From Methanoregula sp. SKADARSKE-2 (GTDB taxonomy: Archaea > Halobacteriota > Methanomicrobia > Methanomicrobiales > Methanospirillaceae): a DNA stretch of 64,000 bases. Shown here piece by piece: positions 12,383-50,373 of this stretch (positions are counted from its first letter, which is position 1; each line of letters starts with the position of its first letter). A program made the translations under genes and the position numbers. A model generated the notes under the pieces. It saw only the letters and a program-made list of their open reading frames with translations. It had not been told where the DNA came from and searched no databases. The DNA lies in contig CP121470.1 in assembly GCA_030919125.1 (NCBI GenBank), forward strand, positions 1,720,391 through 1,784,390, written 5' to 3'.

Positions 12383-12688
12383 TTACAACTCATATATCTG
12401 GACATGCGGGACTTTCCCGATCATGATGCAGCCTTCGCGGGTTACGAGTCCCATATCGATTGCAGTAGTTATCGCCCGCTCCCCCATGAGGTTGGCATTG
12501 CAGGCTCTTTTCAGGGCCTCCCTCACTTCGGATTCAGAGACAGTGCTGGTCCCGTAAAACGCCTCGGTTATTTTTACCGACCGCTTGTCGTGAGAAATCG
12601 TCGTATTGATCAATTCGCGATCGCAGACCGCAACGACATCGCTCATTCCGGGGGCGCGATGGACCTTTAAATACATTGGTTTATGCAT
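12383..12688 (-). CDS. DUF424 domain protein
   Basis: 101-residue small cytosolic protein matching the archaeal DUF424 family, with the characteristic start MYLKVHRAPG, a central strand-helix region and the tail HVQIYEL. Its function is unknown; archaeal genomes often keep it beside translation genes. Only two bases separate it from nmd3, so the pair is co-transcribed. Either ATG (12688 or four codons later) could start it; MYLKVH is the conserved beginning, so the shorter form is equally possible. Confidence 0.85.
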   Translation of the reverse strand: MHKPMYLKVHRAPGMSDVVAVCDRELINTTISHDKRSVKITEAFYGTSTVSESEVREALKRACNANLMGERAITTAIDMGLVTREGCIMIGKVPHVQIYEL

Positions 12689-12724
12689 TGGCCGGTCGGG
12701 ATAAAAAAAGTTGAGTTCGTTACC

Positions 12725-13558
12725 TTAATCGATCGAGATGGTAACACCATATACTTTTTCGATGTTCTCCCCGTGGATGCGGAAACAATCCTCTTCCGTG
12801 ACAACTCCGGCCTCGAGGAACTTATTCGTGTAGCGCGGCACCGATTTCGGGCCGATTACCGCCCCGGGGCGCGAATTTTCATCCATATAATCGCTCTCCA
12901 TCGTGAACCTCCGCCCCTTTTTCACTATCTGCGGGATTGCTTCATGCTTCGCGATGAGAGACGGGTGCAGCGGGGTGGTATCCACTGAACCGTAATGCTT
13001 TACCACGCGCTCAACCGGGACACCCGCCCTTTGCGCCATTCCCACGATATCGGCGCAGGGGCCGGTCTCTGCATGGATCTGGAGGGCGCATCTGCGCTCC
13101 GCTGCGAGAAGGAGCGCATGCTCAAGGACATCGTTCGATGCCGCAAGAACCTCCGGAGGGACTTCGTAATGGGGTCTCCCGCTCTTCAGGCCGACAGCCT
13201 TTCCCTCCTGCACGTAGCACGCAGCGCATTCAAGGCCATCCTTCATGACCGCCACTGCATCGGCAAGTGGCATACGCTCCGCGAGCCGGTTAATCTCAGC
13301 AGGATGGACCCCAAGGATGGGAAAAACAACGATGCCGGTCTCGCGAATAAGGTCAGCTACCCGGAGCGTTTCATCGAAAACTGCTGCATAGTCCCGTCCC
13401 GAAGACGGGTGGACCCCGAGGGACCAGGACGGTTTCGAGACGAGGAAGATATGCGTCCCGCCCGCGCGGAAGAAATCCTTCGCTGCTTCGATACCCCTCC
13501 CGTTGACAGGATCGATATGGATATGATCGTCAGTGATGGGAAAGCTGGGGGATTTCAT
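12725..13558 (-). CDS. TatD-related metal-dependent hydrolase
   Basis: About 277 residues of an amidohydrolase-type barrel. The N-terminal metal motif is DDHIHIDP (residues 9-16); later come ILGVHPAEINRL, the strand CALQIHAET and VKHYGS with another histidine. This matches the archaeal TatD-like branch rather than bacterial TatD DNase. The frame is open back to 13651, but those extra codons overlap mptD and are not conserved. The ATG at 13558 puts the metal motif at the right distance and gives a normal 29-base overlap with mptD. The substrate is unknown. Confidence 0.85.
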   Translation of the reverse strand: MKSPSFPITDDHIHIDPVNGRGIEAAKDFFRAGGTHIFLVSKPSWSLGVHPSSGRDYAAVFDETLRVADLIRETGIVVFPILGVHPAEINRLAERMPLADAVAVMKDGLECAACYVQEGKAVGLKSGRPHYEVPPEVLAASNDVLEHALLLAAERRCALQIHAETGPCADIVGMAQRAGVPVERVVKHYGSVDTTPLHPSLIAKHEAIPQIVKKGRRFTMESDYMDENSRPGAVIGPKSVPRYTNKFLEAGVVTEEDCFRIHGENIEKVYGVTISID

Positions 13559-13883
13559 GGATCTCCACGATCTCCATAAGCGGGTAGCTGATGGATGGGG
13601 CAAGTTTTGCCCGGCAATAGGTAAAACCAACCCGAGTGATGATCTCGACATTGTACATCAGACCGGAGAGTTCGCTGTACCCGAACCGGTTTTCGGTCAT
13701 CAGGCTTCGGTCGAGCCGGACGGTTATCTCTTCGACAAAAGGCTGAAGGATTGCCGCTTTCTCGATCGCTTTCTCAACGCTTGCCGCAGTTTCGCGCGAA
13801 ATGGGGGTTCCCACCCACTGGTGGTAGAGGGCTCCCAGTTTTATCCCGGCTTCAAACACCGCCCTTTCCCGGTCGTTTATCAT
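13530..13883 (-). CDS. mptD: Archaeal dihydroneopterin aldolase
   Basis: 117 residues matching the archaeal MptD family (DUF372/COG2098). The enzyme cleaves 7,8-dihydroneopterin to 6-hydroxymethyl-7,8-dihydropterin in methanopterin synthesis. Family features seen are the N-terminal helix ERAVFEAGIKLGALYHQW, the central FGYSELSGLMYNVEI and the C-terminal VEIHEIP. It is unrelated in sequence to bacterial FolB. The gene lies 22 bases after mcm and overlaps the TatD-like hydrolase. Confidence 0.9.
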   Translation of the reverse strand: MINDRERAVFEAGIKLGALYHQWVGTPISRETAASVEKAIEKAAILQPFVEEITVRLDRSLMTENRFGYSELSGLMYNVEIITRVGFTYCRAKLAPSISYPLMEIVEIHEIPQLSHH

Positions 13884-13904
13884 GATCTTCTCCCTGTTCT
13901 ATCG

Positions 13905-16016
13905 TCAGATCAACTGGATAATGCCATGTTTTGGTTCCATCGCTTCGCCATTCCGGAGGAGCATGTCGATCCCCTCCCGTACTTTGTCCCGGGAGAACCC
14001 CTTCGAAGAGACGGTCTCGATAACCTGATCGATCGACGCCCTCCGGTTCTCCCCGCCGACATCCCGGATCGCGTCCTTGATCACCCGAACGATATCCCGT
14101 TTCTCCTTTGAGATACCGGTTGCGATCTTGTCGATATCGAAATTGCCGGTCTTCGCATCGTACGCGATCTGGCGCAGGCAGGCATCCACGATATGGATGA
14201 CCCGGTCCGCGTCACTGATCTCGATGGTATTTGAGAGCCGGATGCGTGCGCTCGCCTCCCCGAGCCGTACCAGTGCTTCGAGCTGTCGTGCGGTCACCGG
14301 GACCGGCTTGTTCGGTTCTGCGATACCCCTCAGTTTGAGGTAGTAGTTCACCAGCGCTTCCTTTGCATCCGGGGACATGATGGGGAAACAGTTCCGCTTT
14401 GCATACGCGACGTATTTCCGGAAGAGGGACGGGTCGATATCCGGCATGACCGGCTTGAGCTGCTGCTGGATGTACTCGTCCGTCACCCTGGGGATCGGGG
14501 TCTTCTTGTGCTGGGCGATCAGCTCTCCGGTTGTATGGGCTTTGAGGATGTGCTGGGCGATCGCGAGGTCGCGCTTCTGCTCCGGCTGGTCGGTCATGAT
14601 GAAGATCAGATCGAACCGGGAGAGGAGCGAGGGGGGCATGTTGATCTGGTCCGAGATATCGCCGTACATATCGAACCGGCCATACTTCGGGTTTGCAGCC
14701 CCGAGGAGGGCGCACCGGGATTTCAGGGTCGCCGTGATGCCGGCCTTCGCAACGCTGATCGACTGCTGCTCCATCGCTTCGTGCAGGGCAGAGCGATCTT
14801 CCTTCTGCATCTTGTCCATCTCATCGACCGCGGCGACACCCATATCGGCGAGGACGAGTGCACCGGCTTCAAGCGTCCAGCGGCCTTCACCGAATTCGTC
14901 CTTGACAGCAGTCGCGGTCAAGCCGGCAGATGTCGAAGACTGACCGCTCGTATAGATCGCCCGTGGCGAGAGCTTGACCACGTATCGCAGCAGCTGGCTC
15001 TTTGCGATACCCGGATCCCCGATCAGGAGGACATGGATGTCGCCCCTGAGCCTGCTCCCGTCGGGCATCTCCTTAGCAATCCCGCCAAAAAGCTGGAGCG
15101 CGATCGCTTCCTTGACATCCTCGCTCCCGTAGATGGTCGGTGCGACAGAATGCGGGATCATCCGGTAGATCATCGGGTCTTTGCTGAGGGCCTGGATATC
15201 GTTCTCGTCCTTCTCATCGATCTCGACTTCCTCAAACTCCTTCTCGGCTACTTCGATCGAGTTGCATTCAAGGAAGATATCGAATACCGTGCTCTTCTCG
15301 CCCTTGATCACGCGCTGCATCGAGCGGAGGATACCGTTGACGATGACCCGATCTCCCGCAGAGACCTGCCCTGAAAGGTCATCGGTAACATCGATATCCA
15401 ACGTCTGGGGTTGCTCACCGCCCCGGAGTCCTTCGGGAGATTCCTGGACCCGGAGTTTCTGGGAATCGACAAATCGTGACCGGGCAGGGACGAGATCCAG
15501 TTTTTTGAATGTGCAGCCATCCGTCGCACATCCATCCGGGTCAATGAATTTACCGTATTTCTGGATTTTGTGCGTGAAGTGACCTGCGGGGCACTTGAAA
15601 ACGGCTTCGACGATCCGTGGCCGGACTTCGGTGGTCTTGCGCAGGATTCCTTCCACGGAGAGGAACTTGTTGATGTCATCCGATCGGATATCCCGCGCAG
15701 CGGTCTTCTTCGGGAGATTGATGAACCGGATATTGATATTCTTCGGTTCCTTTCCGTCCTTTATCCTAATGAGCTGGTTGTTTTTGATGGCATCCCCGAC
15801 ATCCTCGATGACTTTTCCCGGGCTTTCGAGCAGTTCATCCGCAAGACCGATCCCCACTTTACCGAACCGCTCGACCTCACGGTAATCGATGTAAAGCGAG
15901 CGCTTGTGGGGGTATTCGCGGGAGATCTCGCCGAGCTCTTTCTTGTATTTGCTCTTTAAGAGCCGGCTCCAGTCGCCGATCTTGTCTCCTTCGTGCATGT
16001 CGGGGGCAATCTCCAT
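13905..16016 (-). CDS. mcm: MCM replicative DNA helicase
   Basis: 703 residues. The N-terminal domain includes a zinc-binding region (KCPAGH ... DGCATDGC, about residues 140-170) and an OB fold. The AAA+ domain has Walker A GDPGIAKS, Walker B VLADMGVAAVDEMDKM and the arginine finger SLLSRFD. The C-terminus (last ~70 residues) is the usual winged-helix domain. It unwinds DNA at the replication fork as a hexamer. The start is three bases from the stop of rfcS, so helicase and clamp loader are co-transcribed, a sensible pairing. Confidence 0.97.
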   Translation of the reverse strand: MEIAPDMHEGDKIGDWSRLLKSKYKKELGEISREYPHKRSLYIDYREVERFGKVGIGLADELLESPGKVIEDVGDAIKNNQLIRIKDGKEPKNINIRFINLPKKTAARDIRSDDINKFLSVEGILRKTTEVRPRIVEAVFKCPAGHFTHKIQKYGKFIDPDGCATDGCTFKKLDLVPARSRFVDSQKLRVQESPEGLRGGEQPQTLDIDVTDDLSGQVSAGDRVIVNGILRSMQRVIKGEKSTVFDIFLECNSIEVAEKEFEEVEIDEKDENDIQALSKDPMIYRMIPHSVAPTIYGSEDVKEAIALQLFGGIAKEMPDGSRLRGDIHVLLIGDPGIAKSQLLRYVVKLSPRAIYTSGQSSTSAGLTATAVKDEFGEGRWTLEAGALVLADMGVAAVDEMDKMQKEDRSALHEAMEQQSISVAKAGITATLKSRCALLGAANPKYGRFDMYGDISDQINMPPSLLSRFDLIFIMTDQPEQKRDLAIAQHILKAHTTGELIAQHKKTPIPRVTDEYIQQQLKPVMPDIDPSLFRKYVAYAKRNCFPIMSPDAKEALVNYYLKLRGIAEPNKPVPVTARQLEALVRLGEASARIRLSNTIEISDADRVIHIVDACLRQIAYDAKTGNFDIDKIATGISKEKRDIVRVIKDAIRDVGGENRRASIDQVIETVSSKGFSRDKVREGIDMLLRNGEAMEPKHGIIQLI

Positions 16017-37575: not shown

Positions 37576-38890
37576 TTACCGTTCTATCCAAAAGCCTGTA
37601 TTCTTCCAGGAGGTCATGCCTCCCAGCATGTTGGTGACGGAGCGGTACCGGTTTGCATGCAGGATCCCAGCGGCGAGGCTTCCCTTGTACCCCCCGTCAC
37701 AGTAGGTGATAACCGGAAGATCGCGCGGGATCTCATCGAGATGTTCTGTCAGCTCGCCGATATAGCGGTGATGCGATCTGGGGATGTGGCCCACGGATCT
37801 CCGGTTCTTTATGTCCCGTACATCGAGAACAAAAACCGTCTCTTTCTCTTGTCGCTCCTTAAGTTCCTGCGCAGTACACGTGGCAAACGAGTCAGTCTCC
37901 TGAGCAGCCTTCGACCAGGACGGGAAACCTCCTCCAAGGTAGCCGCGGAGATTGTCGTACCCGAGCCGGGTGAAGTGACAGAAGACGTCTTTGAGCCCGC
38001 AGTTGAAATCGTCAACGACAACAATCGGCTCGTTATAATCGAGGAACCATCCCATGAACGAGGGGAGCCCGTCCCGCCAGATCGAGAGGCTGTGTGGGAT
38101 ATGGCCGGCGGCGAAACTGGTCGGGGACCGGATATCGACTATCTGGCAACCGGATTTCCTGAGCGCTACGACTTCAGGAATAGAGAGCGGTCCCGGCCGG
38201 GGGATCCGGTCAAGGAGTTGCGGACCGTTGGCGTTGAGCACCTCCATGGTACGGAAGTATGGGGGATAGTAGGGTGATTCGGTGACACGCCGGGCGATAA
38301 ATTCCTCCCGGGCAAGGGCAAGAAGCGGGTTTGTCGCACGCTCGTAGCCTGCGGTTGTGAACGAGTGGTCCGCGATATCCCCGCCGCAGAGAGACCCGGC
38401 ACCGTGGGCCGGACAGACGATGACCCCCTCGCCAAGCGCGAGGATCTTCTTTACAATGCTGTCATGGATCTTGCCCGCCATCTCAGCCTTTCTCTCCTGC
38501 CCGTAAAAATCGGTTCGACCAATGTCGCCGGCAAGGAGCGCGTCGCCGCAGAAGACCATATAGGGTTTATCGGAGACTTCTCGGTCTTTCAGGACAATTA
38601 AGATGCTCTCCTCCGTATGGCCCGGTGTCTCAATGACCCCGAGTTCGAGCGTCCCAATCAAAAAGATCTCTCCCTCTTTCACCGGGTTGCCATACGCAAA
38701 ATTGAAATTTTTTCCATGCCAGATTCCGGCCCCGCAGAGGTTTGCAAGCTCCCGGGAACCGGTGAGATAATCCTCGTTCCGGTGGATCTCGAAGAGGTGG
38801 GTGATGGCCATCTCATTGCGGTCTGCGAGAGCGAGGTACTCCTCACATGACGGACGGGTATCGGAGGAGAACCGGCTGGTTGTTTCCCGT
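37576..38890 (-). CDS. MBL-fold hydrolase with two rhodanese domains, 5' end missing or overlapping
   Basis: The frame encodes a metallo-beta-lactamase domain (metal motif IHRNEDY, then ETPGHTEESI, CGDALLAGD, CPAHGAG) and two rhodanese domains (about 255-350 and 365-455). The second rhodanese keeps the active-site-like ITYCDGGYKG with its cysteine; the first has VVDDFNC. This family of persulfide/sulfur-handling enzymes normally begins about 25 residues before the DPR-like strand. Here the frame reaches that strand (DTRPSCEEYLAL, near 38880) but then runs into the 3' end of the LigT-phosphoesterase gene without a start. The first internal ATG is at 38814. Either the 5' end was lost or translation starts inside the overlap. 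Confidence 0.72.
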
Positions 38891-40147
38891 TTTCTCCGCA
38901 TGGCGGATCCGTGAAGTGATCTCCTTGAGGGAGACCGGGACGTATCCCACGACTTCGGCACTCACATTGATCCGCCGGTCGCAAAAATTGATGAACGGGA
39001 ATTCTGCGAGCTGGTTGTTGTGGTGATGCCCGTGGATCACCCAGCCATCGAACCCGATAGGGGCATCGGAGGGGTCGTGCACAAGAAGAAACTTCCGGCC
39101 CTCGTACACGAGATCGGCAGAACGAACCATCCCCGGTTCCGGGTCATCATGGTTCCCCGCGATATAGGTGACCTTTCCTACGAGCTGTTCACGATAGTGT
39201 GATGATGGAGGGGCATCGTTCCCGTACCGCAGGTCTCCCAGGAGATACGCCGTGCTGTTCGGAGAGACCGTGGCATTCCAGTTGCGGATAAGGACAGCGT
39301 CCATCTCCTGAACATTTGGAAACAGGAACGGCCGGGAACAGTACCGGATGATATTTGCGTGACCGAGATAAAGGTCTGCAATCAGGAATATATCGTCCCC
39401 CGGCCCGGCGGGAGTTAAGAGTTCAAACCTGGCATACTTCCGGAAATCCGCAAGCGTCTTACGATTGCATTCGGAATTGTGGAGATCTTCTCCCACGATC
39501 CAGCGTTTTTCCAGAAGATCGTATTCACCGAGGATCTCCTCTCCTACTAAAACTGTTATCCGGAGTCCGGTCTCGTCAATGAGGAGGGGCCGGAGCACCG
39601 GTTTTTTCCCGATACCCCATATCCTGGCAAGGAAGATCCCTACCGCCGGGAAAAATCCGGAATGGGCCTTATCCGGAACCTTGGATGCTCTTATCCGCTC
39701 AAGCTTTTGGAAGATCTCAGAGGCCTGATCTTCTGCGAGCCGGTTGGCAATCGTCACATGGAACCATTTTTTATCCGGGAATGCGTCCCAGGCATTGAGA
39801 CTGGTGACAACCGGGTTCAGCGTATCGCTGATGCCCCTCGTGAGCGCCCGTAATTCTTCGGAAGGATGCACGGTGAATGCGAGAACGCTGCCGTTCATCC
39901 CGACCTTCTTCTCCCAGCCATCGATGGTGAAAGGAACCGGATCATACGCTTGCGCAATATCCTGAAGGGTGTCGAGAAGTGTCTGAGGGCCGGTATCTCT
40001 CAGGAGAAACGGGCCAAACAGGGTGACGTGAGGGTGTCGTTCCATGAAACCCTCAACCCCGAACCGTTCGGCCAAGGCAGAGATGATGGTTTTTACACGC
40101 CACTTCGTTCTTGTGAGCCGGATCTCAATAAGATAGGTTTCTTCCAT
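38843..40147 (-). CDS. 2'-5' RNA ligase-like (2H phosphoesterase) fused to a calcineurin-like phosphoesterase
   Basis: 434 residues in two parts. Residues 1-210 are a LigT-type 2H domain with both HxTx motifs: HVTL at 40-43 and HVTI at 130-133. Residues 250-415 are a COG4186-like metallophosphoesterase with LIADLYLGHANIIRY (255-269), LLGDLR (303-308), GNHD (331-334) and IHGHHHN (371-377). The first metal motif, normally D-x-H, is D258-x-Y260 here. LigT proteins open 2',3'-cyclic phosphates on RNA ends; a fused phosphatase could remove the resulting phosphate, but that is inference. The gene overlaps the MBL-rhodanese frame. Confidence 0.85.
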   Translation of the reverse strand: MEETYLIEIRLTRTKWRVKTIISALAERFGVEGFMERHPHVTLFGPFLLRDTGPQTLLDTLQDIAQAYDPVPFTIDGWEKKVGMNGSVLAFTVHPSEELRALTRGISDTLNPVVTSLNAWDAFPDKKWFHVTIANRLAEDQASEIFQKLERIRASKVPDKAHSGFFPAVGIFLARIWGIGKKPVLRPLLIDETGLRITVLVGEEILGEYDLLEKRWIVGEDLHNSECNRKTLADFRKYARFELLTPAGPGDDIFLIADLYLGHANIIRYCSRPFLFPNVQEMDAVLIRNWNATVSPNSTAYLLGDLRYGNDAPPSSHYREQLVGKVTYIAGNHDDPEPGMVRSADLVYEGRKFLLVHDPSDAPIGFDGWVIHGHHHNNQLAEFPFINFCDRRINVSAEVVGYVPVSLKEITSRIRHAEKTGNNQPVLLRYPSVM

Positions 40148-41449: not shown

Positions 41450-41606
41450 GACCAAGAGTTCTCCGTTCTCCAGAATCGGTGGAAACAGTACAGGAGTGCC
41501 TCGGGAGCGCGATCATGGCAACCTGCTCGTTTATACCGGACTTTTCGATTTTTTCTGTAACTATTCACCACAACATAAAAAAAAGAGTACGATAAATTTT
41601 AGTGAT

Positions 41607-42149
41607 ATGTTTGTTCCATCCAAGATCTTTTTCACCAAAGGGGTTGGTGTCCATAAAGATCGCCTTGCCTCATTCGAGCTGGCATTGAGGAAGGCCGGGA
41701 TAGAGAAATGCAATCTCGTCTATGTTTCCAGTATTTTTCCTCCGAACTGCAAGCAGATCACCAAGTCTGAGGGCTTAAAGCAGCTCCAGCCGGGCGGGAT
41801 AACGTTCTGCGTCATGGCACGGAACGAGACCAATGAACCCAACAGACTTGTATCATCCGCGATCGGTCTTGCACTCCCCAGCGATAATGCAGAATACGGG
41901 TACCTCTCCGAGCACCACGCGTTTGGCGAGACCCAGGAGAAGACGGGGGAATACGCAGAAGATCTCGCGGCGACCATGCTTGCAACCACGCTCGGTATCG
42001 AGTTCGATGTGACCCTCGCATGGCAGGAGCGGGAGCAGATCTATAAGGCAAGCGGGAAGATCATCAAGACCAAGAATATCTGCCAGTCCGCAGAAGGGGA
42101 CAAGAACGGTCTCTGGACAACGACCATTGTGGTTGCGGTGTTCCTCTAA
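41607..42149 (+). CDS. pdaD: Pyruvoyl-dependent arginine decarboxylase
   Basis: 180 residues matching archaeal PdaD. The proenzyme self-cleaves between two serines within [12 protein letters not shown] (Ser83-Ser84) to produce the pyruvoyl group on the new alpha chain. Other family parts are [21 protein letters not shown] at the N-terminus and [14 protein letters not shown]. The enzyme makes agmatine, the first step of archaeal polyamine synthesis and of agmatidine for tRNA-Ile2. The ATG at 41607 follows AT-rich ATAAATTTTAG, which could serve as the TATA box. Confidence 0.94.
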
Positions 42150-42239: not shown

Positions 42240-43007
42240 TTATCTCTCCACTCGGTCCTTTGCCATCCTTCGGATCTTCTCCGCAAGTGCGAGCACCGCC
42301 ATCCGGGCCGCACTCGCCTCCGGGATACTGGAGACCGGTGTTGCCGCAAGATCTGCATTTTCAACAGCGTCATCGGCCGGGATGATGGCTATCGGCTCTT
42401 CGCTGCCGATATCGACCGGGGCGGATCCTGTTTTGTACTTGTTGACCACGAAAAAAATCTTCTCGTTCTCAAGGCCGAGCTGGGTCGCGATCTCCCGGAT
42501 CCGTGCAACGGTCCGGAGCCCCCGGGCCCCGGGATCGCTCACGATCAGGAGCATGTCGGGCTTCCCGATGGTGCCGCGAGCGATATGTTCCATTCCGGCC
42601 TCGGTGTCGATGACGACGAACCGGTACTCGCGTTGGAGCTGTTGCATGCATTCGCCGAGAAGGTCGTTTGCAAAACAATAACAGCCGCTTCCCTCCGGCC
42701 TGCCCATGGCTACGAGATCGAAGCCTTCCGCCTCGACAAGCGACTGACGGAACCGGAACCGAACATAGTCGTGCCGGTTCATCCCCGGCGGGATCTGGCG
42801 GCTGAACGCCTCCTCCCGCATGCTGCCGAGCGATTCCCCGACAGTAACCCCAAGGGCTTCGTGGAGGTTGGCGTTCGGGTCTGCGTCGACAGCAAGGACC
42901 GGCTTTTCGCCGAGCTCAAGGAACGATCGGACGAGGAGCGAGCTGACCGTTGTCTTGCCGGTGCCGCCTTTTCCGGAGAGTGCGATGGTGAAGGGTTGCG
43001 ATGGCAT
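42240..43007 (-). CDS. CooC/AcsF-type nickel-insertion ATPase
   Basis: 255 residues of the MinD/SIMIBI class. It has the deviant Walker A SGKGGTGKTT (about 11-20), switch I VDADPNANL, and FVVIDTEAGMEHI. A Cys-x-Cys (GCYCFAND, near 108-115) matches the metal-binding CxC of CooC. These ATPases mature the nickel centres of CO dehydrogenase or acetyl-CoA synthase. It is the last gene of the acs-like operon, about 80 bases after the methionine-synthase-like gene. Confidence 0.88.
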   Translation of the reverse strand: MPSQPFTIALSGKGGTGKTTVSSLLVRSFLELGEKPVLAVDADPNANLHEALGVTVGESLGSMREEAFSRQIPPGMNRHDYVRFRFRQSLVEAEGFDLVAMGRPEGSGCYCFANDLLGECMQQLQREYRFVVIDTEAGMEHIARGTIGKPDMLLIVSDPGARGLRTVARIREIATQLGLENEKIFFVVNKYKTGSAPVDIGSEEPIAIIPADDAVENADLAATPVSSIPEASAARMAVLALAEKIRRMAKDRVER

Positions 43008-43088
43008 GGTTGGCTCCTTGCTGACCGGTGGATATTGCGGTCGGGGAAATTTATTTTAATGTTTTGTCTTTCGGAGTTTTCTTACTAA

Positions 43089-44132
43089 TTATCCGCGCTG
43101 TTCTGCCCGGATCCGCCGGGAGATCTCTCTCGCCGCGCCCATGATGGCGAGCGAGCCGTTTCGGTCTGCGAAACGGATCCCGCAGCTCGGTGTGATAAGG
43201 GACTGGGCGTCAAAAAGCTCTTCGGGAATTCTCGCACAGAGCTGCTTCCGGATTGCGAGATATTTTTCATACAGGGAATCGATCGTCTCCTTTGAAAATA
43301 CTGCGTACTCGGCGGGAACAATCCCCCAGGCCACTACGCCGCCCCGCTCCAGGTAGGAGATGACCGCGTCGGTGTAGAGGAGGAACTCCTTTGCCGTGGT
43401 GTACGCATCAAACGAGACCACGGAGGGGTTGAGTTCGAGCACGAACTTCCAATCGGTATTCGAGCAGCAGTGGACGCCAAGGCCCCCTTCAACAAGGGAG
43501 GCGATGTCTTCCCACCCGGCTTTTACCATCGCATGGTCGAGCGGAACGACAGATGATCCGAGCGAGGCAAGGTAGGGCTCATTGAGGACCACGAGGGTCT
43601 CATGAACCCCGTTCTTTGTCTTCATCTCGTTCTCGCACCACCGGGCCTTGAGAGCGATCATCTTCGAGAGGACGTCGGCGATCTGCGAATCGTAGTAGAT
43701 CGGGCGCTTGCCGGCGTCAACAACCTGCATACCGAAGGTAACTGGGCCGGTTACCTGGCACTTGAGGTACTGCGTGCCGGCGAGGGACCGGCCCGTCATC
43801 TCGATGAACGCCGATGCATAATCTTTGTGGAGCGCATAGGGGGCAAAATTGCCTTCCACGTAGTCCATGTAGATCTGTTCCATTGCAGCGGTCTGATCCC
43901 GGGTTCTGTCGAAGAGGAGCCGGTCCTCGCGGATGAGCCGGCCCGGGAGCTGCTCGGAGTCGTTGAAGACAATCCCCTCGAGCTGGCCCCGGTCCGGAAG
44001 GGTCGGGATGTACGGGAACCCGGGGAAGATCGAGAGGACATCGCTGCAGGCTCTGGCCGGGTCGGTATGCGGGAGTGCGCCAACGCCGGTCGCGAGCGAA
44101 TGGGGGGGAGAGATCATCCGCGCCATGCTCAC
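43089..44132 (-). CDS. Core methionine synthase-like protein (MetE C-terminal domain only)
   Basis: 347 residues corresponding to the catalytic half of cobalamin-independent methionine synthase. The zinc ligands are in place: H221 and C223 in VHCCSN and C317 in TPSCGIR. ATGVGALPHTDP at the start is also typical of the family. It lacks the N-terminal folate-binding half, so the methyl donor is not a long-chain folate. Stand-alone 'core' enzymes of this type use methyl-corrinoid proteins. Its position directly after the genes for the corrinoid iron-sulfur protein and its activator points to that protein as donor. It overlaps the activator gene by four bases. Confidence 0.82.
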   Translation of the reverse strand: MSMARMISPPHSLATGVGALPHTDPARACSDVLSIFPGFPYIPTLPDRGQLEGIVFNDSEQLPGRLIREDRLLFDRTRDQTAAMEQIYMDYVEGNFAPYALHKDYASAFIEMTGRSLAGTQYLKCQVTGPVTFGMQVVDAGKRPIYYDSQIADVLSKMIALKARWCENEMKTKNGVHETLVVLNEPYLASLGSSVVPLDHAMVKAGWEDIASLVEGGLGVHCCSNTDWKFVLELNPSVVSFDAYTTAKEFLLYTDAVISYLERGGVVAWGIVPAEYAVFSKETIDSLYEKYLAIRKQLCARIPEELFDAQSLITPSCGIRFADRNGSLAIMGAAREISRRIRAEQRG

Positions 44133-46033
44133 TCCTTCCCATGATTCCGGGTTGCCTCCAGCTCTTCCTGCACTGCGGGGAAGAGCGTGAGATCGGTATG
44201 CGGGAGGAATGCGCTGGAGGTGTACTCTTCCATGAACGAGGGCTCGGCATTGAGTTCGATGTACGCGATCTTGTACGCGATCTCATCCAGGGTCTTGCGC
44301 TTCGACCGGTTGATCAGGGCCATGTTTGCCCCGGCGACCGCTCCGTTCCCGATATTCCTGACATGGTCGATCCCGATCTCCGGAATAATCCCGATGATCG
44401 TCGCATTCTTCTTGTCGAGGTAATTGCCGAACGCCCCGGCAAAGTAGATAGTCGCGATCTCGTGCCGGGTGACACCTGCCTCCTTCATCAGGGTGACGCA
44501 GGCGGCATGGACGGAGGCCTTGCTCATGATCAGGTTCTTGATGTCATTCTCGGTGATGACAATGTCTTTTCCGATCGCGGTCTCTCTCTCCCATACGACG
44601 ACAAACTCGGGGAAGTGATCGCCTTTACGGACCCTGTCGTTCTCTATCCCCGTGTTGATCCGCCCGGTCCGGTCGATGATTCCGGCAACGAGCATTTCGG
44701 CGAGGAGATCGATCAGCCCAGAACCCGTTATTCCCCGGGGTTTCGCGCTGTTGATTGTCGTATAGGCTGGCGCGAGGGTCGTGGGATCGATCGTCACCTT
44801 CTCGATCGCCCCGGGGTTTGCCCGCATGCCGAAGAGGACCTCGCCGCCCTCGAGAGCAGGCCCGGCCGCGCCCGCACAGGAGAACATCCACTCCCTATTC
44901 CCGAGCACGACCTCGAAGTTCGTCCCGATATCGATCATGAGGGAGATCTCCTCCCGTTCTGCCATACCGCACGCGAGGATGTCTGCTATAATGTCGCCTC
45001 CGATAAAATCGCTGACTGCGGGGAAGGCGAAGAGGCCGCAGTTCTGGTTGCAGGCTATCCCGATCCTGCTTGCCGCAACCGAGAGGGCCCGGCGCACGAC
45101 CGGGACATAGGGCTCGGCGATCATGTATGCCGGGTCGATGCCGAGGAGCATGTGGGTCATGACCGTGTTCCCGGCAATGACGACCTCGTAGATGTCTTCC
45201 CGGTCGATCCCGGCATTGTCAGCGGCGGACGTGAGAGCCGTATTGATGCTCTCGACCGCAAGGGCCTGGAGCTTCGCAAGCCCGTTCTTCCGGGCGAAAT
45301 TGACCCGGGCGAGGATATCCTCGCCGCAGCTGATCTGCTTGTTGTAGTTTGAGGCGATCCCGACGACCTTGCCGGTCACGAGATCCCAGAGGTAGACAAC
45401 GATCGTGGTAGATCCGAGATCGACCGCGGCGCCGTACAGGCGCATTGCCGTATCATTCTCCTGGAGGTCGATGAGCCGGTACCCTCCTGGTACGAGCGCG
45501 ATCGTGCCCGTGACTTTCCAGTCACTGTGCCGGAGGATCCCCGGGATCTCCCGTAGAACTTCGAGCGGGGCGTACATCTTCTCTGCGACCGGGCCCCCGG
45601 ATTTCTGGATCCCCCAGAGGAGCCGGGAGAGGTCGGGCGACGGATCGGCAAGGCTTGGGGGCTGGAGCTGGACGTAGAACTTCCGGACCGAGGGCCTGAA
45701 CTCGATCGGGAGATCTTCGCGGGTGATCAGGATCTTCTGCTCCTGGATCAGGGAGCTCTCGGGTATCGTGACCTGGATGTCGCCATCGACTGAGGTAACG
45801 CACGCGAGGCATGCCCCGCGCCGGATCTCGTCCTCGTTAAAGAACCGGAAATATTTCTGGAGATCGAAGCTTGTTTTACCGGCCTGGACAAACATCACGC
45901 ACTTGCCACATTTGCCCTGCCCGCCGCAGATGACGTTCACGTTCAGGCCGGCACGCTGGGCTGCGTCCAGGATAGTGCATCCGCGCTCGACATCGATCTT
46001 CCGGTAACTGGGAAGGAAGGTGACCGTAGGCAT
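44129..46033 (-). CDS. acsV: Corrinoid-protein reductive activator (AcsV/COG3894-like)
   Basis: 634 residues. The N-terminus is a 2Fe-2S ferredoxin domain with CGGQGKCGKC (about 35-45) and the later RRGACLACVT. The rest is the ASKHA ATPase of the DUF4445 group, with LGSTTIVVYLWD, ISLMIDIGTNFEVVLGN and AGAFGNYLDKKNATIIG. The protein uses ATP and an electron to return inactive cob(II)amide of the corrinoid iron-sulfur protein to cob(I)amide. The gene lies three bases after acsC and overlaps the core methionine synthase gene, as expected for the bacterial Wood-Ljungdahl operon. Confidence 0.88.
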   Translation of the reverse strand: MPTVTFLPSYRKIDVERGCTILDAAQRAGLNVNVICGGQGKCGKCVMFVQAGKTSFDLQKYFRFFNEDEIRRGACLACVTSVDGDIQVTIPESSLIQEQKILITREDLPIEFRPSVRKFYVQLQPPSLADPSPDLSRLLWGIQKSGGPVAEKMYAPLEVLREIPGILRHSDWKVTGTIALVPGGYRLIDLQENDTAMRLYGAAVDLGSTTIVVYLWDLVTGKVVGIASNYNKQISCGEDILARVNFARKNGLAKLQALAVESINTALTSAADNAGIDREDIYEVVIAGNTVMTHMLLGIDPAYMIAEPYVPVVRRALSVAASRIGIACNQNCGLFAFPAVSDFIGGDIIADILACGMAEREEISLMIDIGTNFEVVLGNREWMFSCAGAAGPALEGGEVLFGMRANPGAIEKVTIDPTTLAPAYTTINSAKPRGITGSGLIDLLAEMLVAGIIDRTGRINTGIENDRVRKGDHFPEFVVVWERETAIGKDIVITENDIKNLIMSKASVHAACVTLMKEAGVTRHEIATIYFAGAFGNYLDKKNATIIGIIPEIGIDHVRNIGNGAVAGANMALINRSKRKTLDEIAYKIAYIELNAEPSFMEEYTSSAFLPHTDLTLFPAVQEELEATRNHGKE

Positions 46034-46036
46034 GAA

Positions 46037-47368
46037 TTACTTCCACTCCTCGTGGAGGTACTCCCCGATATCGGCAGCGTCCCGCGGGCCGACCTGGACT
46101 TTCCACCCGGTCGCTTCCTCGATCCTCCCGGAGAGCGGCGAGGCATAGCCGGGGATGATCAGTTTCCGGTGGGAGACCTCGTTCTCAACATCAAATTTCT
46201 TTATCGCATCCCGGACGAGCGTCTCATTGAGCTTCCCTGCCGCAACAGCCGTCAGGACCGATAACCCTTCCGTGTCAACGATCAGCATGAAGGAGGGGAC
46301 CCGGGTGGATTCGAGGTATCCTTCGAGCGTGAAGAAGGTGAGCGAGAAGTTCACGGTCAGGAGGACCGGTGCATCCTTGCCGGGGGACCCGATCCGGTAC
46401 AGCCCGGGGTTCATCTGGATCGGCTTCTGGGGATCGGTGTACACGTTCTGGCGGAGGGTAAGCGCGGCCTTGGAAGAGGCCTGAGAGAGCGGCGAGAGAA
46501 CGATGACGGACGCATACTTCACGATCCCGAGTGCGATCGCGGCATCTTCCTGGTCGGTCAGGGTTGCATCGAGATAGATCGGATACCCGAGCTCGGGAGC
46601 GGTGCGGGTGATCGCAAGCTGCCGAATTACCGTTGTAGCGGTGACAAAATCCCCAAGGGTTACCGGGGCGAGATCCAGGACGAGATCCTGCAGGCCTTCA
46701 GCGCAGCAATCCTTTGCAAGCTGCGCCAGCTCGTCGAGCCCGTTTGAACGGATTGCAAGCGGGCAGCCGTGCTGCTTTGCTAGAGCGCACATCTCTTTTG
46801 CATTCGCCCGCGTCGCTGCATGGAGGAGAGGCCGGTAGGTTCCGCAATGGACAAGAGCCGCACGGAGAGCGTCAGGATTTTTCGAGATGAGGACCAGAGG
46901 GAGGTCTGCGGTCCGTTCGATGGCAGCGACCGCGTCGGCGAATCTCTCCGGTGTCCCGCTCTCGTTTTCTATCGCGATCCCATTAAACCGGAGCTCCATC
47001 CCGACCCGGATGAGGGACTCGTCCCGGACCCGCTTTGTTACGGCGATGATCTCTTCCGCAGTCTGGGCATCCTTAAGCCGGAAGATAATTCCCGGCGGGT
47101 GGTAGAATGTCTTCTCGTGCCGGTAGAAAACAAATTCCTCGCCTACGCCAAACGATCGCTCGCCAACCCCAATTTTTACGAGCCGGATGGGTGGCCGGGT
47201 CGTGGCACCGAGGAGAGACTTCGCCTCATCGCTGAGGTACGGGCAGAACTCGACATCCGCTTTTCCCCCGGCAAGTTTCATGGCAAAGGTAAGGCAGGTG
47301 GGGTCCCCGCACTCCTTGCAGTTCTTCTTCGGCAGGAGCTTGTAGATGTCGAGAGCCTTGAGCGCCAT
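46037..47368 (-). CDS. acsC: Corrinoid iron-sulfur protein large (gamma) subunit, bacterial AcsC-like
   Basis: 443 residues. The N-terminal 4Fe-4S motif has four cysteines in KKNCKECGDPTCLTF ... FCPY (residues 17-43). A TIM barrel follows, and the C-terminus ending VQVGPRDAADIGEYL is the B12-binding domain. Length and sequence are close to bacterial AcsC (about 445 residues), including YTDPQKPIQMNPGLYRIG. The protein carries the methyl group on cobalt between the pterin and acetyl-CoA synthase. The frame is open to 47464; the ATG at 47368 matches the family start (MALKALDIYKLLPKKNC) and overlaps the acsD stop. Confidence 0.9.
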   Translation of the reverse strand: MALKALDIYKLLPKKNCKECGDPTCLTFAMKLAGGKADVEFCPYLSDEAKSLLGATTRPPIRLVKIGVGERSFGVGEEFVFYRHEKTFYHPPGIIFRLKDAQTAEEIIAVTKRVRDESLIRVGMELRFNGIAIENESGTPERFADAVAAIERTADLPLVLISKNPDALRAALVHCGTYRPLLHAATRANAKEMCALAKQHGCPLAIRSNGLDELAQLAKDCCAEGLQDLVLDLAPVTLGDFVTATTVIRQLAITRTAPELGYPIYLDATLTDQEDAAIALGIVKYASVIVLSPLSQASSKAALTLRQNVYTDPQKPIQMNPGLYRIGSPGKDAPVLLTVNFSLTFFTLEGYLESTRVPSFMLIVDTEGLSVLTAVAAGKLNETLVRDAIKKFDVENEVSHRKLIIPGYASPLSGRIEEATGWKVQVGPRDAADIGEYLHEEWK

Positions 47369-48333
47369 CACTGACCCCCCGCGGTGCCGGCCCTTCCTGC
47401 CCCGGCCTGCATTCCCTCCAACGCGGCCCTGAGCATCGGGATCGTCTTCGGATGCCGGACGCAAAGGATCTCTGCCCCCGCAACGGCCGCAGCAAGGCCG
47501 GTGTAAAACTCCCAGGTCACCGCCATCTCATCCTGGATCACGGGGTCGGCTTCCCGTACTTCTTTTACGGTGAGGGCATCGATCGCGGAACAGATCATCG
47601 GCATCGCGAGGTCAACATCACCTTTCAGGGCCGAGTACCGGATCCGTTCCATCGCCGAGTACGAGTACTCGAACCCGTACCCGAGCGTGCCGGTGTACGG
47701 ATCGATCACGATGTGATCGTGCCGGACCCCGATCTCCCGGAGGAGGATGTTGAGCTGCTTTGCGAGATTGATATCGATCGGCGACTGGGCGATGACCGAG
47801 TGGTCGTAGGCAAGTGCGGCTGCGGCGATGCTCCGGTACCGGGACGCTTCCGCGGTGCCGAGGAGGAGGCGCTCGCCCTGGCCGGTCTCGCCGCACTTCT
47901 GGAAGACCTCGCTGTCTATCCTCGGCTCGTTGCTTCCCTCGATGACAAGCGGGAGGCCGGTTGATGAGAGGACGGTCTCGACCGCTCTCCCGACAGCAGC
48001 CATCTCCGAGAAGTTCCTCTGCTTCGTGCTGGTAAGGTACAGCCGGATAAGATCGACCCCGTACTGCTTGTCTGCGGCTTTCGTCCATCCGGAGAGGTCG
48101 TCAAGGAGGTCGCCGCAGTAATTCCTTATGATCGGCGACCAGTAGACCGGGTTGTCGCAAATCTCAAAAGCAATGAGCGGGGATTTAACGCCCACCGGTT
48201 TTTCGAGGAACGGCAGGGTCGTACCCCCGCCAATCCGGTATGAGACCTCCCGGGACCCTCCGTCTGCTTTGGTTGCGCCGAGAAGGACATTGCCAATCGT
48301 GCCGGTCCACCCGAAGTTTACGTCATATGTCAT
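47368..48333 (-). CDS. acsD: Corrinoid iron-sulfur protein small (delta) subunit, bacterial AcsD-like
   Basis: 321 residues of a TIM barrel. Family signatures include the strand SPLIAFEICDNPVYW, VIEGSNEPRIDSEVFQKCGE and VIDPYTGTLGYGFEYSYSAMERIR. The size fits bacterial AcsD (about 310-325) and is shorter than most archaeal CdhD chains (about 400 or more). It dimerises with AcsC. The stop overlaps the acsC start by one base, and only nine bases separate it from acsB upstream. Confidence 0.9.
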   Translation of the reverse strand: MTYDVNFGWTGTIGNVLLGATKADGGSREVSYRIGGGTTLPFLEKPVGVKSPLIAFEICDNPVYWSPIIRNYCGDLLDDLSGWTKAADKQYGVDLIRLYLTSTKQRNFSEMAAVGRAVETVLSSTGLPLVIEGSNEPRIDSEVFQKCGETGQGERLLLGTAEASRYRSIAAAALAYDHSVIAQSPIDINLAKQLNILLREIGVRHDHIVIDPYTGTLGYGFEYSYSAMERIRYSALKGDVDLAMPMICSAIDALTVKEVREADPVIQDEMAVTWEFYTGLAAAVAGAEILCVRHPKTIPMLRAALEGMQAGAGRAGTAGGQ

Positions 48334-48342
48334 TTTCAGGCC

Positions 48343-50373
48343 TCACATCAGGGGTTTCATGGAGAGTGCGGGGTGATGCACCGATTCAAGGTAGGTCATC
48401 AGTTCTTCGATCGTTGTCGCGTTGTTCTCGTCGGCGATCTTCTCGAAGAACTCAGGCTTCCCATGCTCCGCGAGCTTCTGCGTCAGCCTTCTTCTGAGCT
48501 CTTCTTTCAGCTGGGCCGGCATCCAGACAAGACGCTCGATACCACCCTCGCCCTGGAGGAACCGGTCCGAGAGGATGTAGTTCTTCGAGATCCCGGCAAA
48601 GCCGGGGGTCTGTGCTCCCCCTCCGATCGTTCTTGCGAGAGTCGAGAAGGACATGCCTGACGGCGTAATTCCCTTAAACTCCCGGTTGACCACCATGATC
48701 CCGTTCACTTCCGGAAGCATCAGGGCGATCGCCTCGAAACAGCCGCAGCAGGTCATCGGGTACTCCATCACGCTGTAGAGGGTGCACCGGTCGATCTCCC
48801 CGTGGCTTGCCTTCCGGACAAACTTGTTGACCCCTTCAAACTCGCCCGTCTCGGCATTGATGAGCGTGCCCCGCTCGATCGGCTGGTTGGCACCGGAGGG
48901 GGAGATCTCGTAGGCGATCTTGCCGTCGAGCCAGCTGATCGCCCCGCAGAGCGCCGGGCGTTCAGGAGTGATGACGCAGACATGGTTCGGGGCAAAAGTC
49001 TGGCAGAGCGTGCAGGAGTAGTACGTGGTCGTCTCCTTATCGCACATCCCCTTGATCCGTGCGTCGCGCTCTTCATAGATCGCCTCGGCCTCCTTCTTTG
49101 CAGCGAGAATCTTCTCCGGATCGGTGATGAGCGTGACCGAGATCGCATCGAGGAGTTGCGGGAAGTCCATCCGGAACTTGCTCGCGATGAGTTTCCCGAT
49201 ATGCTTGATCTTTATTCCTTTTGCAACAACTTCTTTTGAGATCCTTACCCAGATGAGATCCCTCTGGGCCACGTGCCACGAGCCCTCGCCATAGTTGACG
49301 AAGTTGTGGATCCTCCGTTCAAGGACCGGCTCGTAGTCCTTCCGCATATTCTTGCCGGCAACATCGATGACGATCCCGAGCGGGTTTGCGGAACCCTCCC
49401 TCATCTGGTCGACCTCCGGGCCGATGACCGTGATCTCTCCGTCTTTTACTTCGGAGGGATCCCGCATGCGGAGGATCTCGAAGGCGGGCGATCGCCCGCC
49501 CCCGAACTCGAGATACATCTCCTCTTTCCGGATACTCTTTCCCTCGAATGCCGGGGAGCAGCCCATCGGGATCGGGATTGCAACGACATTGACCCGGATC
49601 CCTTTCTTCTCCATGCCGGTCCGGACGATATTCTCCGCATCGGTGTGGATCCATTCACCACCGGTATACCCGTCCAGAGAGAGAATGGGGAAACCGAGGA
49701 CCCGCATCCCGTCAACCAATGCCACATCCTCATCGGAGAGGCCGGGGAAGACGATGACGATCGCTTTTGCCCGCTCGGCAGCGTACGTGAGGAGACGGGA
49801 GGTGTCGCCCGGCGTGACTCCGCCAAACATCACCGCTACCCGGGCTATGATATCCACAAAATGGATCCCGTACTGCGGTGTCGGGCCGAGCGGGATGAGC
49901 CGGTAATCGAGGCCGAGCTTCACCCCGGCGCCGGTAAGAATAGGGACGACATCGCCTGCCAGGAAGGTAAGCATATACTTTTCCTGGAGTTCACGGCAGA
50001 TCGCTGCGGCGGCATCGGGGCCACACGGTCTCCCCACAATCAGGGCAAGGCCGAGAATACTTCCATCAACGAGCGAGTACCCGAGTTTCCTTATAACCGT
50101 ATCGCTGATGAAACCGGTGTACGGCTCCGGTGCCTTCCCGCCTGAGGCTGTCCCTTCCGCAAGAATACACTCTGCGGCAACGAGCGGGTTGCTGCCCATC
50201 CGAATGAAAACATCGGATGCACCTTCCGGGTCATGTACCTGGAGACCGGTCAGCGCAAAGGAGATGGGAAGATGGTACGCCGTCTCTTCGTACGAGAACG
50301 GGTTCTTTATCGTGGCTATCTTTGATTTCAGGAGTTCTTCGCCATTTTGTTTGGCCAACTCAACGTCGGTCAT
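48343..50373 (-). CDS. acsB: Acetyl-CoA synthase, bacterial AcsB type
   Basis: 676 residues. The C-terminal A-cluster domain has the 4Fe-4S cysteines C454, C457, C466 and C476 (YSCTLCQTFAPNHVC ... ALCG) and the distal nickel site C543-G-C545 in MTCCGCFEAI. The N-terminal ~310 residues form the extra domain found in bacterial AcsB but absent from archaeal CdhC (about 470 residues); that domain docks CO dehydrogenase. The sequence follows bacterial AcsB throughout, including the end HPALSMKPLM. It condenses a methyl group, CO and CoA to acetyl-CoA. It is the first gene of the operon and diverges from the surface-protein gene at 50548. Confidence 0.95.
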   Translation of the reverse strand: MTDVELAKQNGEELLKSKIATIKNPFSYEETAYHLPISFALTGLQVHDPEGASDVFIRMGSNPLVAAECILAEGTASGGKAPEPYTGFISDTVIRKLGYSLVDGSILGLALIVGRPCGPDAAAAICRELQEKYMLTFLAGDVVPILTGAGVKLGLDYRLIPLGPTPQYGIHFVDIIARVAVMFGGVTPGDTSRLLTYAAERAKAIVIVFPGLSDEDVALVDGMRVLGFPILSLDGYTGGEWIHTDAENIVRTGMEKKGIRVNVVAIPIPMGCSPAFEGKSIRKEEMYLEFGGGRSPAFEILRMRDPSEVKDGEITVIGPEVDQMREGSANPLGIVIDVAGKNMRKDYEPVLERRIHNFVNYGEGSWHVAQRDLIWVRISKEVVAKGIKIKHIGKLIASKFRMDFPQLLDAISVTLITDPEKILAAKKEAEAIYEERDARIKGMCDKETTTYYSCTLCQTFAPNHVCVITPERPALCGAISWLDGKIAYEISPSGANQPIERGTLINAETGEFEGVNKFVRKASHGEIDRCTLYSVMEYPMTCCGCFEAIALMLPEVNGIMVVNREFKGITPSGMSFSTLARTIGGGAQTPGFAGISKNYILSDRFLQGEGGIERLVWMPAQLKEELRRRLTQKLAEHGKPEFFEKIADENNATTIEELMTYLESVHHPALSMKPLM

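Follow-up and report, generated by a model that had tools for sequence, protein, structure and literature searches.

A second acetyl-CoA synthase (ACS), of a type regarded as exclusively bacterial, is encoded in about half of the sampled genomes of the methanogen order Methanomicrobiales. Its gene shares an operon with that of a probable methionine synthase, and the genome often holds no carbon monoxide dehydrogenase (CODH). The operon studied here occupies positions 42240-50373 of a 64,000-nt stretch (the window; contig positions 1720391-1784390) of the single-contig, 1.95 Mb genome of Methanoregula sp. SKADARSKE-2, in the gene order acsB-acsD-acsC-acsV-mesB-cooC, all on the minus strand. Comparisons covered 232 genomes of the order, drawn from six families (f1 to f6), and a further family of the same phylum (f7). 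AcsB exceeded the model cut-off in 105 of the 232 genomes, or in 111 when fragments were included, and its carriers were found in families f1, f2, f4, f5 and f6, with none in f3.

Domain structure of AcsB

acsB (48343..50373, minus strand) encodes a 676-residue protein that scored 902 bits against NF040764 (cut-off 800), matched PF03598 and PF19436, and was aligned by Foldseek to the ACS chains 7zkj, 1ru3 and 6ytt. Residues 1-265 (49579..50373, minus strand) were aligned by blastp at 30-35% identity with bacterial ACS and with the A1 domain of f7, with no real match to CdhC, and in the predicted model this part matched the isolated A1 domain of Clostridium autoethanogenum (6yua) with a template modelling (TM) score of 0.74-0.78 by target length. 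The core of the protein is 54% identical to ACS of Carboxydothermus hydrogenoformans and 44% identical to CdhC of the same genome.

Residues were compared between 94 distinct AcsB sequences of the order and four kinds of CODH-coupled control, namely the ACS of C. hydrogenoformans, C. autoethanogenum and Acetoanaerobium noterae and the CODH-ACS fusion of f7. The A2-A3 core and the six cysteine ligands of the A-cluster (Cys454, Cys457, Cys466, Cys476, Cys543 and Cys545; 48739..49014, minus strand) are those of a three-domain ACS, and the ligands are invariant in 94/94 sequences and in the controls. All 94 sequences of the order have lost 16 residues that CODH-bound ACS has in the helical bundle of A1, a gap seen in none of the four control kinds. 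As judged from sequence, AcsB is an ACS of the three-domain, A1-containing (bacterial) type; the marks of archaeal CdhC, which lacks A1, and grouping with CdhC were not found. The original prediction of a bacterial N-terminal CODH-docking domain thus stands as to type, on both the 30-35% match and the model fit, while its length has to be corrected from about 310 to about 265 residues with the 16-residue loss.

According to a 2024 PNAS paper (PMC11474084), no methanogen and no modern archaeal ACS has the A1 domain, and in the methanogenic complex a domain of CdhA occupies its place. Whatever the function of AcsB, the first of these statements is contradicted by the genomes described here.

Residues of the CO tunnel and alcove

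The tunnel position Ala222 of Moorella ACS, which corresponds to 225 in C. hydrogenoformans (the entry titled A225L has Leu there and the wild type Ala), is Ile176 in the window's AcsB (49846..49848, minus strand) and is Ile in 54, Leu in 30 and Val in 10 of the 94 sequences, against Ala in all controls. Position Ala225 in Moorella numbering is Val in 91 and Ile in three, again against Ala in the controls, so the small tunnel residues of bifunctional CODH/ACS (Ala222 and Ala225) are missing in 94/94. At the CO-alcove position Ile146 of Moorella, represented in the window by Tyr99 (50077..50079, minus strand), Tyr was found in 94/94 sequences and Ile or Val in the controls. Arg142, Gly145, Val149, Phe229 and Phe512 are kept, as are all A-cluster cysteines. 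Moorella positions 110 (beside the deletion) and 265 (Ile also in the CODH-fused archaeal enzyme) were not relied on, and the AlphaFold model of AcsB was not usable for the tunnel, since residues 99-104 (within the gating helix) have a predicted local distance difference test score (pLDDT) <50 and domain placement differs from that in crystal structures.

In the aligned sequences, the tunnel position of AcsB from the order is naturally altered where the laboratory mutant A225L was made. Equivalent tunnel mutants exist in Moorella ACS. Variants of the A225L type, going by the title of work by Ruickoldt et al. in 2024 (cited in PMC12289521), reportedly bear on CO passage. ACS of C. hydrogenoformans binds CO very tightly and takes it from solution, and a blocked tunnel does not stop ACS from capturing CO (PMC12289521), a remark that likewise ties these variants to CO passage. 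At position 146/149 only Ile, Leu, Val or Thr have been reported, and it has been proposed that Ile149 (Moorella 146) strains acetyl-nickel and accounts for the A1 requirement in C-C cleavage (PMC12289521). We infer that tyrosine at this alcove position would favour cleavage.

CODH genes of the source genome and of other carriers

No CODH gene lies in the 64-kb window, as originally predicted, and none was found inside the operon in the sampled loci, where a bifunctional CODH/ACS would have a CODH subunit encoded with or for its ACS. Across the genome, an intact native cdhA-cdhB-cdhC-cdhD-cdhE cluster was found at 53-64 kb of the contig (C1; cdhA at C1:59985-62249), no cooS was found at E 1e-30, and the sole other prismane-family protein is one hybrid-cluster protein. 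With cdhABCDE intact elsewhere, the operon supplements the native complex, which settles the choice between replacing and supplementing that the original prediction had left open. A RACo-type activator and two ATPases of the CooC type belong to the native cluster itself (L006:3362-5227, 12512-14310), giving the genome two sets of service genes.

Among the 111 AcsB carriers, cdhA was found in 53, cooS in 58, both in 23 and neither in 23; the last group includes a 99% complete, single-contig genome. When ten of these 23 (90-99% complete; G056 in one contig) were searched with PF03063, seven gave no match and three gave hybrid-cluster proteins, which were not counted as CODHs. Whether a genome has AcsB does not depend on cooS (odds ratio 1.0), and one genome (G196) has the operon and cooS without cdhA. 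An obligatory CODH partner for AcsB is unlikely, and this is the likely answer to the question, raised with the original prediction, of which CODH AcsB works with. In two genomes cooS and a cooC-like gene lie about 2 kb downstream of the operon (G157, L045:17145-19501; G219, L052:19-2600).

The operon has no acsE, and the single PF00809 protein encoded in the genome was rejected as AcsE, as it adjoins folD and resembles dihydropteroate synthase. This dihydropteroate synthase-like gene beside folD (L169:1441-3083; C1 ~905-908 kb) hints at folate alongside methanopterin chemistry.

The MesB-like protein and its linkage to acsB

Between acsV and cooC lies a sixth gene, mesB-like (43089..44132, minus strand), which the original prediction had skipped. 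Its 347-residue product matched no Pfam family, even with the threshold relaxed to E 10, and no sequence in the PDB. The predicted model has the core methionine synthase fold and is closest to MesD (3rpd; Z 22.7, root mean square deviation 3.1, 280 residues) and MetE (Z ~22), followed by 4ay7, a coenzyme M methyltransferase (Z 17.9), and by UroD. The zinc residues His221, Cys223, Asp242 and Cys317 (HxC..D..C) of the thiol-activating site are invariant in 62/62 MesB-like sequences, and this H-C-D-C pattern fits MesB of Dehalococcoides mccartyi (PMC7857596). The equivalent of Ser433 is Ala in 39, Ser in 12 and Gly in 11 of the 62. With a predicted MetE-like fold and the H-C-D-C zinc residues of MesB, the protein is a probable methionine synthase.

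mesB was found downstream of acsB in 76/76 loci of sufficient length. AcsB and the MesB-like protein are jointly present in 108 genomes and jointly absent from 118; the six exceptions (three each way) are all incomplete genomes (62-89% complete), and joint presence or absence varies inside several genera (g10, g13, g27 and g31). Price et al. 2021 (PMC7857596) had already reported operons of mesB with acsC and acsD in some methanogens, and some members of the Methanomicrobiales that have MesA as well as MesB; the sections consulted deal neither with AcsB and its A1 domain nor with an absent CODH or the tunnel. A search of the open library turned up no paper that names this operon in Methanoregula or Methanosphaerula, and an earlier notice of bacterial-type AcsB in the order is possible.

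Distribution and descent

The operon order was identical in 20/20 sampled loci from five families, with cooC lying beyond the fetched stretch in one locus. AcsB sequences of the order form one clade (100/100), placed with bacterial and f7 sequences and apart from CdhC (100/100), and branching among the three groups has no resolved order. AcsC and AcsD of the order do not fall inside the few bacterial sequences compared, which came from four sources only; they make up a third lineage, next to the Cdh group and the group of bacterial and f7 sequences. In a tree built from five operon proteins of 21 genomes, the branching is broadly that of the families, f4 being one clade, f1 compatible with one and f2 split. 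All 80 loci returned by a contig scan for bacterial relatives belong to the same order, a plasmid collection gave one bacterial AcsB, that of A. noterae, and no relative was found in viral contigs. The sole other AcsB carriers in the sampled phylum are f7 genomes, in which AcsB is fused behind CODH in proteins of 1377-1395 residues. These fusion reading frames (L164:6591-10778 in G250 and L166:8164-12297 in G232), with acsD, acsC, acsV and cooC adjacent, are a natural archaeal CODH-ACS fusion.

Since the operon occurs in five of the six families in fixed order and its tree approximately follows those families, any transfer must be old relative to the order. We conclude that the operon has either long been present in the order and been lost repeatedly, or was an old acquisition with some exchange. 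For AcsB a bacterial source is plausible. The horizontal transfer from an anaerobic bacterium that was first predicted is scarcely credible as a recent event confined to this methanogen: the A1 domain, the 54% core identity to C. hydrogenoformans ACS and the G+C content of the operon (59.6% against 54.5% for the window) speak for it, but it is contradicted by the same operon in five families, the single AcsB clade (100/100) and the family-following operon tree.

Remaining genes of the operon and its neighbours

acsD (47368..48333, minus strand) encodes the small subunit of the corrinoid iron-sulfur protein (321 residues; PF03599; NF003376 342 bits, cut-off 280), and acsC (46037..47368, minus strand) the large subunit with an N-terminal Fe-S motif (443 residues; PF04060 and PF03599; NF003195 547 bits, cut-off 306; match to PDB 2h9a). 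With both subunits present and the Fe-S motif in AcsC, AcsCD has the make-up of a corrinoid iron-sulfur protein. The acsV-like gene (44129..46033, minus strand) encodes a 634-residue reductive activator of corrinoid protein with the RACo linker, middle and C-terminal domains and Fer2; it scored 549 bits over its full length against the AcsV model NF040756, under the curated cut-off of 800, and its membership of the RACo family is clear. The last, conserved gene, cooC-like (42240..43007, minus strand), encodes a 255-residue P-loop ATPase (PF01656 and MinD/ParA-type matches), probably for nickel insertion. Junctions from acsB to mesB range from a 4-base overlap to a 9-base gap, acsD and acsC overlapping by 1 nt, and 81 bases precede cooC. 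Apart from the overlooked mesB, the original calls of an AcsV-like activator and a CooC-like ATPase hold good, and the predicted lengths of acsB, acsD and acsC are borne out by reading frames and profile models.

A pyruvoyl-dependent arginine decarboxylase gene (window 41496-42149) is convergent with cooC; several other genomes have the same neighbour (L035, L036 and L051), and in L044 it lies upstream of acsB. The 434-residue protein encoded at window 38843-40147 combines a 2'-5' RNA ligase-like domain with a C-terminal region weakly resembling a metallophosphoesterase (PdeM model).

Proposed function and alternatives

Our preferred interpretation, held tentatively, is that the operon encodes a CODH-independent module of ACS, corrinoid protein and MesB, old in the order, that probably cleaves acetyl-CoA for methionine methyl groups; the make-up of the operon supports a path from AcsB through AcsCD to MesB. 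CO would not be delivered from a docked CODH, and AcsB would be mainly an acetyl-CoA decarbonylase yielding CoA, free CO and methyl-AcsCD. MesB would transfer the methyl group from methyl-AcsCD to homocysteine, giving methionine, as proposed for D. mccartyi, with AcsV and CooC as service proteins, and CO would be oxidised where cooS or cdhA is present and otherwise leave the cell. The complete chain, in which an A1-containing ACS dispensed with CODH, had its tunnel closed by fixed substitutions, and works as a decarbonylase that passes methyl groups via AcsCD to MesB and releases CO, is put forward more guardedly still. Cleavage for methionine supply would explain why mesB is so tightly linked, why CODH and acsE are missing and why the tunnel is altered; the direction of flow cannot be read from sequence.

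Several points weigh against cleavage for methionine. Most carriers have some CODH, and the genomes with cooS near the operon suggest a possible loose CODH partnership in some species. The co-occurrence of AcsB and the MesB-like protein (Fisher 2e-58, kinship ignored) could reflect joint loss of a linked block. Methanogens already have methyl-tetrahydromethanopterin (methyl-H4MPT) as a methyl source. MesA is present in 216/232 genomes of the order, so the MesB route is not the sole source of methionine, and replacement of MesA by MesB is ruled out by this near-universal presence. At the equivalent of Asp599, the MetE residue that binds the amino group of homocysteine, 47 of the 62 MesB-like proteins have Asn, eight have Ser and only seven have Asp, and the thiol may differ. 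Near-universal MesA and these changed homocysteine residues call for caution on methionine.

Flow in the synthetic direction, in which AcsCD takes methyl groups from methyl-H4MPT without AcsE, AcsB joins them to dissolved CO (from outside, CooS or CdhA) to form acetyl-CoA, and MesB is a methionine side branch, is rather unlikely: four of five carriers have some Ni-CODH, C. hydrogenoformans ACS takes CO from solution even with a blocked tunnel (PMC12289521), and the alcove residues Phe229, Val149 and Phe512 are retained, but 23 carriers have no CODH, no association with cooS was found (odds ratio 1.0), and the constant presence of mesB is left unexplained. The same 23 carriers count against docking of AcsB to the cell's own CODH, whether CdhA or CooS, as an ordinary CODH/ACS with an altered interface, as do the loss of the tunnel alanines in all sequences, the retention of native CdhC beside CdhA in this genome, and the clash to be expected between an ACS with its own A1 and the CdhA domain that replaces A1 in the methanogenic complex. 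Docking is accordingly improbable, even with cdhA in 53 carriers, cooS in 58, cooS near the operon in G157 and G219, and interfaces of bacterial CODH/ACS that already vary among classes (PMC11474084). Least probable of these three is methylation by the MesB-like protein of another thiol, for example coenzyme M, by which acetate methyl groups would pass to methyl-CoM and methane. The zinc site kept beside a homocysteine amino-group residue that is mostly Asn or Ser, and the shared fold of 4ay7, would suit it, but the structural match to MetE and MesD is closer (Z about 22-23) and Asn may still bind homocysteine.

Relation to known systems

To our knowledge, D. mccartyi has no CODH. Its incomplete Wood-Ljungdahl route (PMC7005905, PMC7857596) resembles the proposed module in its corrinoid protein and MesB methionine synthase; the route is reported to lack acsE and metF, and the methionine methyl group comes from the acetate methyl group. 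It differs in that the organism is a bacterium and that no fixed acs operon with mesB is reported there. The MesB family of Price et al. 2021 (PMC7857596) is alike in its H-C-D-C zinc pattern, size and acsC/acsD linkage, whereas the homocysteine-binding Asp is mostly Asn in the proteins of the order.

Bacterial CODH/ACS (Moorella, C. hydrogenoformans and C. autoethanogenum) shares the three-domain ACS, AcsC, AcsD, an AcsV-like activator and a CooC-like ATPase, whereas the operon has no acsA or acsE, 16 fewer A1 residues, replaced tunnel alanines and Tyr for the alcove Ile. Archaeal CdhABCDE (ACDS) shares the ACS core (44% to CdhC) and homologues of AcsCD in CdhD and CdhE; its CdhC has no A1 and uses the CdhA domain (PMC11474084), whereas the window's operon has neither CdhA nor CdhB. 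The f7 AcsA-AcsB fusion is likewise an A1-containing archaeal AcsB, but it is CODH-fused, keeps tunnel alanines 222 and 225 and has no 16-residue gap.

Significance

The statement that A1 is missing from archaeal ACSs (PMC11474084), which the AcsB proteins described here contradict, served reasoning on the enzyme of the last common ancestor. The same proteins supply over 90 natural counterparts of the laboratory tunnel mutants and make it testable whether ACS can serve a cell without CODH. For the methanogens of peatlands and digesters, they suggest a route by which acetate carbon may enter methionine, and with it a source of CO.

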